The translations under genes and the position numbers were made by a program. Source: Dehalococcoidia bacterium (GTDB lineage: Bacteria; Chloroflexota; Dehalococcoidia; SHYD01). Taken from it: DNA of 40,170 bases. Below are positions 2,114 through 39,719 of this stretch, piece after piece. The stretch is taken from contig SHYD01000020.1 in assembly GCA_009692945.1 (NCBI GenBank), positions 1-40,170 of the forward strand, given 5' to 3'. The stretch's first letter is position 1. Each line of letters opens with the position of its first letter. The notes under the pieces were generated by a model, which made no database searches, was not told the DNA's origin, and worked only from the letters and a program-made list of their open reading frames with translations.

Positions 2114-2941
2114 GTGGCTATCAGAATTTATAAGCCAACATCCCCCGGCCGGCGAGGCATGACCGCAGCCACCTTCGACGAGGTGACCAAGGACCATCCG
2201 GAACGGTCGCTGGTGATATCGCTCAGGAAGAAGGCCGCAGGCCGGAACTTCCGGGGCAAGGTGACGGTCCGCCATCAGGGTGGTGGGCACAAGCGACTCC
2301 TGCGGATCATCGACTTCAAACGGAATAAAGAGGGCGTTCCCGGAAAGGTTGCGGCGATCGAGTACGACCCGAACCGGTCGTCTCGGATCGCATTGATTTA
2401 CTACGCCGACGGCGAGAAGCGGTATATCTTGGCGCCCGATGGATTGGGCGTGGGAGCGACGATCGCGGCCGGGGCCGGTGCCGAGGTGCGGATCGGCAAC
2501 TCGATGCCGCTGCGGCTGATACCGACCGGCACGATGATTCACAACGTCGAGATGAAGCCCGGGCGCGGAGGCCAATTGGGCCGGAGCGCCGGAACGGGGA
2601 TCCAGTTGATGGCGAAAGAGGGGACCAACGCGTTGTTGCGGTTGCCCTCGGGCGAAATGCGGCTTGTGCCCAGCGAATGCGCCGCAACCATTGGTCAGGT
2701 GGGGAATTCGGACCACTCAAATTTGAAGCTGGGGAAGGCGGGAAGAAGCCGCCATATCGGAAAGCGCCCGACGGTGCGCGGCAGCGTGATGAACCCGCGG
2801 GACCATCCACATGGTGGTGGTGAAGGAAAGGCCCCTGTGGGTATGCCAGGTCCGAAGACGCCCTGGGGCAAACCGGCGATGGGCTTCCGGACCCGGCGGA
2901 ATAAGAGCACCGACAAGATGATTGTTAAGCGGCGGAGTTAG
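2114..2941 (+). CDS. rplB: 50S ribosomal protein L2
   Basis: 275 residues from a GTG at 2114 ([17 protein letters not shown]), preceded by GGTGAGG. Longer in-frame starts inside rplW have no support. The C-terminal part carries the L2 hallmark [15 protein letters not shown] with the conserved histidine near the peptidyl-transferase centre. It lies 22 nt after rplW and 25 nt before rpsS. Confidence 0.97.
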
Positions 2942-2966
2942 CGGCCGCTGAGAGTTAGGAACTGGC

Positions 2967-3251
2967 ATGTCACGTTCTACAAAAAAGGGTCCCTATATCG
3001 CGGCCCACCTGGCCAAGAAGGTCGAGGCCGTGCAGCGCAGCGGGCAGAAGACCGTCATTAAGACGTGGTCGCGAGCATCGACGGTGATGCCAAACATGGT
3101 TGGTCTAACCATTGCGGTGCATGATGGCCGGCGGCATATTCCGGTGTTCCTGACCGAAAACATGGTCGGGCACAAGTTGGGGGAGTTCGCGTTGACGAGG
3201 CTGTTTCGAGGCCATCGGGGTTCCGAGGCAACAAGCCGGGCGCGAAGCTAA
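2967..3251 (+). CDS. rpsS: 30S ribosomal protein S19
   Basis: 94 residues opening [15 protein letters not shown] and carrying the S19 core [23 protein letters not shown] and [14 protein letters not shown]19 is in the head of the small subunit near S13 and contacts A-site tRNA. A normal family member within the L2-S19-L22 block. Confidence 0.97.
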
Positions 3252-3271
3252 GCGCGAACGAGGTTCTAGAC

Positions 3272-3604
3272 ATGCGGGTGATTGCGAGAGTGAAGGGATT
3301 GCGGCGGTCGGCATCGAAGATCGCTCCGATCTTGGATGTGGTCCGCGGGAAGCAGGCGGCGGACGCGCTGAACATATTGGCGTTCATGCCGACACCTGCG
3401 GCGCGTGACGTGGCGAAGGTAGTTAAATCGGCTATCGCCAACGCGGAGAACAACTTCCAGATGTTCGCATCGACGTTGAAGATCGTCGCAATCCAGGTCG
3501 ACGGCGGACCAATGTTGAAGCGATTCAAACCACGATCGAGGGGGCGCGTAAGCCCAATTCTGCGGCGGAGTTGCCATATCACCGTTGCAGTGGACAACGT
3601 CTAG
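3272..3604 (+). CDS. rplV: 50S ribosomal protein L22
   Basis: 110 residues with the SASKIAPILDVVRGKQAADAL N-terminal helix pair and the C-terminal beta-hairpin arm ending GRVSPILRRSCHITV. The arm lines the exit tunnel at the constriction with L4; changes there give macrolide resistance in other bacteria. It lies 8 nt before rpsC. Confidence 0.96.
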   Translation: MRVIARVKGLRRSASKIAPILDVVRGKQAADALNILAFMPTPAARDVAKVVKSAIANAENNFQMFASTLKIVAIQVDGGPMLKRFKPRSRGRVSPILRRSCHITVAVDNV

Positions 3605-3612
3605 GAGCAGCT

Positions 3613-4347
3613 ATGGGTCAAAAAACGCATCCGATCGGGTTCCGACTTGGCGTGATCAAAACGTGGCAGGCGCGGTGGTGCGCTCCACGGAAGGCGCTCT
3701 ACACCGTGCTGCTGCACGAGGACCTGAGCATCCGCAAAAGCATTCTGGAGCGGTATCCCGATGCAGGTGTGTCGAAGGTGGAAATTGAGCGTGGCGCCAA
3801 CCAAGTGACGGCTACGATCCACACGGCTCGTCCTGGCATTGTCATCGGCAGGGGCGGGCAGAAAGTCGACGAGTTGCGGCACGAGTTGGAGAAGAGTACG
3901 GGCAAGCGGGTGCGGATCAACATTCAGGAGATCCGGACGCCGGACTTGGATGCTTACCTGGTGGCCCGCAGCATAGCGGATCAAATCCAACGGCGGGTGG
4001 CGTATCGCCGGGCGATCAAGCAGGCGGCAACCCGCGTGCTGCAACGGGGCGCCCTGGGAGTTCGCATTGCTTGCGCCGGGCGCTTGGGCGGAGCCGAGAT
4101 GTCTCGCAAAGAGAAGGAACGGCACGGGCGGGTGCCGCTGCATACGCTGAGAGCTGATATCGACTACGCGCTGGCAGAAGCCCATACCACCCTGGGCCGT
4201 ATCGGCGTGAAGGTGTGGATTTATAAGGGTGATATCTTGCCAGCACAGCAGCCGCGGGTCGCCGCTATCCCGGCGGCTGAGTCTGAACCAGCGGCGGAAA
4301 ATCCTGAAACGGCGGCCATAAGAGATGCTACAGCCGAGCAGAGTTAA
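3613..4347 (+). CDS. rpsC: 30S ribosomal protein S3
   Basis: 244 residues from the ATG at 3613 ([15 protein letters not shown]), which follows an AGGAG site; upstream in-frame starts lie inside rplV. The KH domain motif [14 protein letters not shown] is near residues 78-91 and the C-terminal domain motif [30 protein letters not shown] is intact. The alanine/glutamate-rich tail is lineage-variable. The 3' end overlaps rplP by 23 nt. Confidence 0.97.
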
Positions 4348-37853: not shown

Positions 37854-38264
37854 TCACCGGTTCATCATGGCGATGGAGGCGCGCTCGAAGTATTGACGCA
37901 TCATCTCAGCCCATGGTTCGGGCACTGCAACCTCATCGATCGCCTCCAACATGTCCTTGAGCCATGCATTGCGCTCCGGCAGGCCGATGGGGAAGGGGAA
38001 GTGGCGCATCCGAAGGCGGGGGTGGCCGTATAGGTCGCTGTAGGTCCGAGGGCCACCGAAATACTGGATCAGGAAGAGGTACTGACGCTCGCGGCTCTCC
38101 CCCAGGTCGTCCGGGAACATGGGGCGCAGCAGCGGATCGGCGGCGACCCGGCGGTAGAATGCCGCCACGAGGTCGCGGAATAGCCGGTCACCCAGGGCAT
38201 CATAAGCCTGCGCCTCAATCGTGAGGAGCGGTGATTCCGTGAGGGGTGTCAACTCGGGATCCAT
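37854..38264 (-). CDS. Truncated haemoglobin, group II (trHbO)
   Basis: 136 residues, 2-on-2 globin. LFRDLVAAFYRRVAADPLLRPMFP, QYLFLIQYFGGPRTYSDLYG and GHPRLRMRHFPF (proximal H88) are characteristic of group II. It binds haem and may handle O2, NO or peroxide. No Shine-Dalgarno site precedes the ATG; a TTGACG (38299-38294) and a weak TAGCCT box (38276-38271) would start transcription close to the ATG, suggesting a leaderless message or coupling to the TlpA-like gene 74 nt upstream. Confidence 0.9.
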   Translation of the reverse strand: MDPELTPLTESPLLTIEAQAYDALGDRLFRDLVAAFYRRVAADPLLRPMFPDDLGESRERQYLFLIQYFGGPRTYSDLYGHPRLRMRHFPFPIGLPERNAWLKDMLEAIDEVAVPEPWAEMMRQYFERASIAMMNR

Positions 38265-38338: not shown

Positions 38339-38902
38339 TCAGCCTGCCGCCGCCAATCGTTCGAACAGTTGGCGCCACGAGTTCACGTCGCCCACGCCAT
38401 AGCCCGCGGTATACACGATGGCGCCATCCTTGCCCACCACGAACTTGGTCGAGGTGCTGGTGACGCGGTAACGCTCAAGCAGCTCAGGGTTGCCCTGGGC
38501 CACCTTCCACGGGTAGCCGTTGCTGGAGGCGAAGGCGCGCAGCACCTCTGGGCCCTCGCCCGGATCTATCCCGACCGCAACGAGGTTCACCTTACCGGCG
38601 TAGGCTGGATAGAGGTCTTTGAGGAACCGAAACTCGTCCCGGCAGACCGTTCACCAGGTAGCAAAGAAGAAGAGGACGTAGGGCTTGCGTTCGTTCGCCA
38701 GCGAGGCGCTGGAGACCGTCTGCCCGTCGACCGTCTGAAGGGTGAACGCCGGCGCGGAGTCGCCCACTTTCGGGGCGGTCCCGGGGCTCGCAGCCGAAGA
38801 AGGCCCCGCCGCTGGCGTTGGCGCCGCCGCAGGGCCGCAGCCTGCCAGTGCGATGCAGATGAGCACACTTGCCAGCGCCCGCCATGGGTGTCCTGGTCTC
38901 AT
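38339..38902 (-). CDS. TlpA-like thioredoxin-fold lipoprotein, probable selenoprotein (WUxxC)
   Basis: 187 residues if the in-frame TGA at 38653-38651 is read as selenocysteine. The start is the ATG at 38902, 5 nt after AGGAGG. The N terminus has a basic start, a hydrophobic stretch and lipobox LAGC (C22), so the mature protein is probably lipid-anchored outside the membrane, followed by an Ala/Pro-rich linker. The redoxin domain starts VGDSAPAFTL and reaches LFFFATW, then TGA (codon 84), T, V, C87, R, D, E, where TlpA proteins have WCxxC. The homology continues unbroken in the same frame to AGKVNLVAVGID and the C terminus. The usual cis-proline (PT before F) appears to be ST. It lies between the racemase-like and globin genes. 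Confidence 0.8.
38614..38653 (-). promoter_or_regulatory. SECIS-like hairpin downstream of the in-frame TGA
   Basis: Immediately after the TGA the minus-strand RNA can fold as outer stem GGUCU/AGACC (38648-38644 with 38618-38614), a small internal loop, inner stem GGGAC/GUUCC (38640-38636 with 38627-38623) and an 8-nt apical loop GAGUUUCG. The loop opens with G, contains GU, and begins 16 nt after the TGA, within the spacing known for bacterial SECIS elements read by SelB. Confidence 0.6.
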
Positions 38903-38948
38903 TGAACCTCCTGATTCCATGCCCGTTCAGTTGGGGTTGCCGCCTGCG

Positions 38949-39719
38949 TCACCGGCTGAACAATTGCCCGTAGCCCTGGACTTCTGACGGGTCCAATCGG
39001 GCGGTCTTGAGTCCGGCCCAGATCAACGCCTGCAGATTCGTGACAACCGGGATGCCGAGGTCCCGCTCCATCTCCTCGATGATCGCCGCCACGGGGGTGG
39101 AGGCGCCGGTGACCCAGATGCCGTCGCAGTCTGGATGGGCGTTGCGCAGCGACCGCACAGCGCGATAGGTGACCGCAGTCGGTTCGATCTCGAAGTCATG
39201 GTCGTAAACCGCGCGGAGTGCGCTGTGGCCCACCACCTCGATGCCGGCGTGGTGCAGGTAGTCCGGGATGCCATTGATGTAGTCGGTGAAGGGGTTCATC
39301 ACGGCGATGCGTTTCATGTTGAGGGCTCGCATCGCGTCGATGGAGGCGCCGATGCTGGTGACCAGCGGGATCGAGGTGATCTTTGCCATTCGCTGGCGGT
39401 ACACCGCCTCCTGGCCCCAGCCCTTGGTGACGATGGTGGGCAACCCAAGTTGGAGCAGGACGTCCGGATGGCGCGACGCCAACTCGCCCACCGCCTTCTC
39501 GGCGCGCACGACCGCGGCGTCGTAAGCGACCTGCAGTCCGGGCGTGCCGCGCGCCTCCGGGGGGATGACGATGTCCTGCGAGGTGATCACCAGCGTGACC
39601 CCCGGAGGCGCCATCAAGTAGAACTCGAAAGGGATATTCTCGGGGGCCGGATGGGCGGCCAGCAGCCCGAAACGGGCTTTCCAGCCGTACGCTGCACCCG
39701 CAGCAGGTTTGGTTATCAC
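38949..39719 (-). CDS. Asp/Glu racemase / maleate isomerase superfamily protein without catalytic cysteines
   Basis: 256 residues from a GTG preceded by AGGAG. It has the two-domain arylmalonate decarboxylase/maleate isomerase pattern: N-terminal GWKARFGLLAAHPAPENIPFEF, the first active-site loop at LQLGLPTIV and the second at GIWVTGASTPVAAIIEEME, then GIPVVTNLQALIWAGL. The catalytic cysteines expected in these loops are absent; the only cysteine is in HPDCDG. It may be a divergent enzyme with another mechanism or a binding protein. First gene of a minus-strand set with the TlpA-like and globin genes. Confidence 0.72.
   Translation of the reverse strand: MITKPAAGAAYGWKARFGLLAAHPAPENIPFEFYLMAPPGVTLVITSQDIVIPPEARGTPGLQVAYDAAVVRAEKAVGELASRHPDVLLQLGLPTIVTKGWGQEAVYRQRMAKITSIPLVTSIGASIDAMRALNMKRIAVMNPFTDYINGIPDYLHHAGIEVVGHSALRAVYDHDFEIEPTAVTYRAVRSLRNAHPDCDGIWVTGASTPVAAIIEEMERDLGIPVVTNLQALIWAGLKTARLDPSEVQGYGQLFSR

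Follow-up and report, generated by a model that had tools for sequence, protein, structure and literature searches.

The minus strand of the window, the whole 40,170-nucleotide stretch of Dehalococcoidia bacterium DNA that was analyzed (contig SHYD01000020.1), carries an apparently broken gene for a thioredoxin-fold lipoprotein. Comparison with relatives indicates that the internal TGA of this gene is a selenocysteine (Sec) codon and that the gene encodes an intact selenoprotein, a reading to which we assign a probability of about 0.95. Judged by sequence, Sec coding is established together with a SECIS element, the fold family, a UxxC motif, and the loss of the cis-proline. In ordinary annotation, genes of this kind are split or labeled as pseudogenes, and their use of selenium is therefore hidden.

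Gene, reading frame, and protein

The translation of positions 38902-38339 (-) gave 187 amino acids and a final stop, with one internal stop, TGA 38653-38651, within FFATW*TVC (Table 1). The Pfam matches of the joined protein span the TGA, with AhpC-TSA as the best (E 1.7e-18), followed by Redoxin (1.7e-14) and Thioredoxin_8 (2.7e-10). Translation and these matches confirmed the claim of an earlier note on this DNA that two same-frame minus-strand halves are split by a single TGA. TlpA/ResA-like chains from the PDB align from residue 41-50 to about 171, and among solved structures the best matches are thioredoxin-like proteins, ResA being one of them. The TGA sits where the TlpA/ResA-like relatives have the first Cys of CxxC and, as the note had also stated, homology is intact on both sides of it. 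The sequence agrees with the TlpA/ResA-like description (cd02966), a thioredoxin fold with a selenol-thiol xxC site, and with the general description of a bacterial selenoprotein, in which an in-frame UGA occupies a conserved redox position and homology extends to either side of it. The typical peroxiredoxin pattern, Pxxx[T/S]xxC/U with a conserved Arg, is absent; the alignment has ATWUTVC, with Ser at the Arg/cis-Pro position. The best NCBIfam match was ResA NF002854, which at 57 bits did not reach the curated cut-off of 170. The lipobox LAGC is preceded by a basic n-region, a sequence pattern that predicts an export signal and membrane anchor.

Table 1. Features of the predicted selenoprotein gene, in window coordinates
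Feature	Position	Strand	Basis or remarks
Predicted selenoprotein CDS	38342..38902	-	187 aa with Sec84; single in-frame TGA, thioredoxin-fold homology on either side
Stop codon of the gene, TGA	38341-38339	-	
Predicted UGA codon of Sec84, first position of UxxC	38651..38653	-	TGA at 25 sites in the class and in 2 orthologues outside it; one Cys orthologue
Resolving Cys87 codon of UxxC	38642..38644	-	No variation in alignments A1 and A4
Shine-Dalgarno-like AGGAGG, 4 nt before ATG	38907..38912	-	Sequence
Predicted lipoprotein signal peptide, lipobox LAGC, lipidated Cys22 (codon 38839-38837)	38837..38902	-	Sequence pattern
Ser151 codon at the thioredoxin-fold cis-proline position	38450..38452	-	Aligned to Pro of IPAVFIV in 2m72; clade-wide loss
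Upper SECIS hairpin: stem 38640-38635 with 38629-38623 (3' single-base bulge), apical loop AGUUU 38634-38630	38623..38640	-	Covariation, 25 sequences
Lower helix: GGUCU 38648-38644 with AGACC 38618-38614	38614..38648	-	Minimum-energy fold alone

The TGA of this gene is the only one in the window that interrupts a sense-strand open reading frame in this manner at a CxxU/UxxC-type site. A structure model was discarded as support, since the single-sequence AlphaFold2 prediction reached a pLDDT of only 47, which is too poor. The gene is flanked directly downstream by a gene for a truncated bacterial globin (37854-38264, minus strand) and directly upstream by an arylmalonate decarboxylase (Amdase)/EutA-like racemase gene (38949-39719, minus strand). 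Neither type of neighbor was seen at the other loci examined, where only part of the neighbors were classified.

Conservation of the TGA codon among relatives

The searches covered 100 relatives, 393 genomes of the class, which is probably Dehalococcoidia of the phylum Chloroflexota, and fetched loci, along with a separate sample of the phylum. Within the class, 25 distinct homologous UxxC sites with an in-frame TGA were found in 17 genomes, the window included, and the phylum sample added two TGA orthologues (G542 and G443) from other classes. The closest orthologue found, G542, has FFATWUTTCRAEFRLLKDLYP where the window has FFATWUTVCRDEFRFLKDLYP. On either side of the TGA, its amino acid identity to the window protein is 53%; between the two genes, variation is greatest at third codon positions. 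One clear Cys orthologue, G156, has WCSTC with a TGT codon. The two comparisons that had been proposed along with the original observation, for conservation of the TGA and for homologues with Cys in its place, thus both gave positive results. A scan of genome contigs with the single protein yielded nothing beyond two distant alphaproteobacterial loci, SCO1-like judging by their CPDVC motif, and these were set aside.

Several loci show other arrangements of the gene. Tandem pairs of Sec-TlpA genes, with TGA at UxxC in both copies, were seen at L108, L111, and L110 (genus g11) and at L095, L096, and L097 (genus g135). On contig 199 of G356 (L098, approximately 2404-3840, plus strand), a single frame joins two thioredoxin-like domains by a Pro-rich linker and has an in-frame TGA at the UxxC of each, 254 codons apart; its product is a predicted lipoprotein with two selenocysteines. 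A close orthologue on contig 4 of G047 (L109:4101, minus strand) has apparent frameshifts after the TGA, which are probably assembly errors, and is followed by genes for a membrane protein that contains NPCG and for a multicopper oxidase.

The hairpin downstream of the TGA codon

The earlier note had described a two-part hairpin after the TGA. Free folding did produce the lower helix and the upper hairpin, at -14.2 kcal/mol, but this energy is not unusual compared to shuffled sequences (z of -0.7 to -1.2), and folding energy was dropped as proof of a SECIS element. Because the fold energy alone was not below that of the shuffles, the case was based on covariation, and only through covariation is the hairpin convincing. 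In 25 sequences, a conserved hairpin lies 11 to 28 nt after the UGA, with columns 14-19 pairing with columns 25-30 (UGA being 1-3) around a loop of AGUUG or AGUUU. Pairing was found in 84% of the cells; five of the six pairs were changed on both sides, as were 37 cells. The covariation score was 0.565, compared to 0.158 for shuffled sequences and at most 0.182 for slid partners, and every other position tried gave a less well paired 6-bp helix. The expectation that relatives would conserve the pairing was therefore borne out. The apical loop had been said to begin 16 nt after the TGA, starting with G. The offset holds for AGUUU in the conserved register, but the initial G belongs to the minimum-energy fold.

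A rigid stem with six of six pairs was present in 15 of 25 Sec forms and in none of 43 Cys homologues, and a hairpin of at least 6 bp in 24 of 25 and 18 of 43, respectively. Cys homologues of the same class usually have GAGATG (Glu-Met) where the Sec forms have GAGTT(G/T) (Glu-Leu/Phe), suggesting that the GU of the loop may be kept at the expense of the residue. In the conserved register, the window stem has one mismatch, A17-G27, for which a single 3' bulge is the better reading (G14-C31, G15-C30, G16-U29, and A17-U28, then C18-G26 and G19-C25); the same reading is possible in several relatives (L095-L097 and L099). A covariance-model search, another of the checks suggested earlier, detected the window hairpin with a model built without it, at 32.8 bits (E 3.4e-6), a score that includes a contribution from sequence homology. 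The same model scored the Cys orthologue at 15 bits and no other part of the window above 11. The window hairpin agrees with the published bSECIS rules (PMC13188914), and nothing in Rfam matched it. Further matches to the model in the genome (13 to 18 bits) were rejected, as the four inspected had no credible open reading frame.

Selenocysteine machinery of the genome

The assembly that contains the window comprises 2.5 Mb in 99 contigs and is 81% complete. The search for Sec machinery called for by the earlier note was successful for SelB (347.7 bits, over the cut-off), SelD (377 bits), and tRNA-Sec(UCA) (70.7 bits, over the gathering score, with the anticodon tca confirmed by ARAGORN), but SelA was not found in this incomplete assembly with TIGR00474 or PF03841. 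Sixteen other genomes carry the gene: SelA was full-length in 14 of them, a fragment in one (G356), and absent from one (G096); it is present in G001, a genome of the same family, and in G004, a genome of the same order. At 81% completeness, we read the absence of SelA as assembly incompleteness, and neither this absence nor that of a DsbD/CcdA partner (see below) is decisive. Of the 17 genomes with Sec-TlpA genes, 15 have SelB at E below 1e-90, but this co-occurrence counts for little, because 253 of the 393 class genomes contain SelB over the cut-off in any case. The SelD gene carries one in-frame TGA, at codon 18 within SLASCAGUAAKF (L061:4537-4539, minus strand, contig 31 of G000), and SelD is itself a predicted selenoprotein. 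With the TGA of the lipoprotein gene, at least two genes of this genome thus have a TGA at a catalytic position.

These results bear on three other explanations of the TGA. A pseudogene with a recent nonsense TGA, or a miscalled TGC or TGG, would fit the facts that there is a single assembly and that SelA is missing from it. However, TGA occupies the same codon at 25 sites in 17 genomes and in two further orthologues, amino acid identity is equal on either side of it, and the hairpin covaries; an explanation of this kind is extremely improbable and, through the conserved TGA, already refuted in practice. It is also very improbable that the UGA is a real stop that ends a short N-terminal peptide, perhaps with a separately started C-terminal piece. 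The gene itself ends in UGA and a GTG start is available downstream (open reading frame 38590-38339), but termination would divide the active site, each half of the protein is conserved among the compared relatives, an orthologue has exchanged the UGA for Cys, and Sec machinery is present. Some bacteria decode UGA with Cys-charged tRNAs. A variant tRNA that inserts cysteine or some other residue is possible in principle, and the failure to find SelA in the assembly would agree with it. Yet the tRNA-Sec is canonical, SelD and SelB are present, full SelA occurs in 14 of 16 other carriers of the gene and in the same-family G001, and the SECIS is maintained, which leaves decoding by a variant tRNA with very little probability. 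For selenocysteine, the UGA would be decoded by tRNA-Sec that SelB delivers, and the hairpin, beginning 11 nt downstream, would keep SelB at the codon.

Loss of the cis-proline

The serine that the earlier note suspected at the cis-proline position is real: Ser151 of the window protein stands where 2m72 has the Pro of IPAVFIV, and the loss is a trait of the whole clade. In a tree of 63 proteins, the window protein falls in a clade of 22 (21 Sec and 1 Cys) with support of 100/100. The Sec forms outside this clade (G042 and two of G030) imply at least two further Sec/Cys changes on the tree. Cys homologues have Pro at the position in 38 of 39 cases, the sole exception being the clade's own G156, whereas among Sec homologues Ser was found in 15, Ala in 4, and Pro in 5, so that Pro is lost in 19 of 24. 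The tree requires only two changes at this position and offers no informative independent pairs, and it therefore allows no claim of a statistical correlation between Sec and cis-proline loss. We therefore regard the loss as the trait of one clade and not as repeated co-evolution with Sec. The cis-proline has been described as more conserved than CxxC itself; peroxiredoxins carry Arg in its place, and the proline may prevent metal binding to CxxC (PMC2757866). The clade joins two rare changes at one active site, from Cys to Sec and the loss of the cis-proline, and with G156 as a natural Cys orthologue for a control, what the cis-proline does in a selenol enzyme can be tested directly.

Relation to known proteins and possible function

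The novelty implied by the earlier note was overstated, because a UxxC "thiol-disulfide isomerase-like" selenoprotein family with the TlpA-like domain cd02966 is already described in PMC1088965 (2005, Sargasso Sea set) and PMC13188914 (2026). The window protein shares with it the TlpA-like domain, Sec as the first residue of UxxC, and a SECIS just after the UGA, but belongs to a clade mostly without the cis-proline; the catalogued family was compared by description only. In most features the window protein is of this catalogued kind, and the missing cis-proline and the Sec-rich clade set the variant apart. The Prx-like thiol:disulfide oxidoreductase selenoproteins (PF00578, UxxC/UxxU; PMC13188914) have the same best Pfam family and UxxC, but the closest structures of the window protein are TlpA/ResA-like and it has no peroxiredoxin Arg. 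The TlpA disulfide reductase selenoprotein (cd02966; PMC13188914) resembles it in the TlpA-like domain and Sec, but its motif is UGC, not UxxC. ResA, CcmG, and StoA share the membrane-tethered extracytoplasmic fold, and ResA NF002854 is the best NCBIfam match, but they have Cys where the window protein has Sec, the Cys homologues compared retain the cis-proline, and the window gene has no adjacent cytochrome c biogenesis genes.

On balance, the protein is probably an extracytoplasmic selenol-based thiol/disulfide reductase. We infer its localization, the direction of electron flow, and its substrate; the earlier note's proposal of a lipid-anchored, extracytoplasmic protein with reductase or isomerase activity is a reasonable one. 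Export and lipidation at Cys22 would place the Sec84-x-x-Cys87 active site outside the cytoplasm, where Sec84 would attack the oxidized substrate and Cys87 would resolve the selenenylsulfide. Without its cis-proline the protein is less likely to be an ordinary thioredoxin-type reductase, and it is conceivable, though somewhat unlikely, that the Sec coding is right but that a protein with Ser or Ala for the cis-proline is peroxidase-like or a UxxC metal binder. This would be consistent with cis-proline loss in 19 of 24 Sec homologues and 1 of 39 Cys homologues, with the published roles of this position (PMC2757866), and with AhpC-TSA as the best Pfam match. On the other hand, the resolving Cys of UxxC is invariant, the nearest solved structures are thioredoxin-like, including ResA, and the protein lacks the Arg and the TxxC context of peroxiredoxins. 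More speculatively, and rather doubtfully, the extracytoplasmic TlpA-like proteins of this kind in Chloroflexota may form a distinct, largely Sec-dependent subfamily in which the selenol and the Ser or Ala serve chemistry other than ordinary disulfide exchange, such as direct reduction of peroxide or organic hydroperoxides or, at a UxxC-Ser site, the handling of metals or selenium.

For a thiol/disulfide reductase, an electron donor of the DsbD_TM family (DsbD/CcdA) had no match in the incomplete genome of the window, and one was found beside the G042 gene, outside the clade. A partner reductase was likewise sought in the gene neighborhood without success, as neighbors differ between loci and the NPCG membrane protein of G047 matches no Pfam family. 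At L105, a Sec-TlpA gene outside the main clade (TGA at 3706, plus strand), apparently of separate Sec origin, adjoins a DsbD_TM (CcdA-like) gene at 2692-3426.

Other candidate selenoproteins in the class

In-frame TGAs were also observed at UGIC, UPFC, and UIYC of thioredoxin-fold proteins in class genomes (L056:1636, L058:1629, and L059:1718); these are likely further Prx-like selenoproteins. At L057 and L060 (G090 and G022), an in-frame TGA lies at a peroxiredoxin-like TPGU/TKGU, resembling the known TxxU peroxiredoxin selenoproteins. The single-contig genomes of the class (1.4 to 1.9 Mb) contain 20 to 30 reductive dehalogenase matches each.
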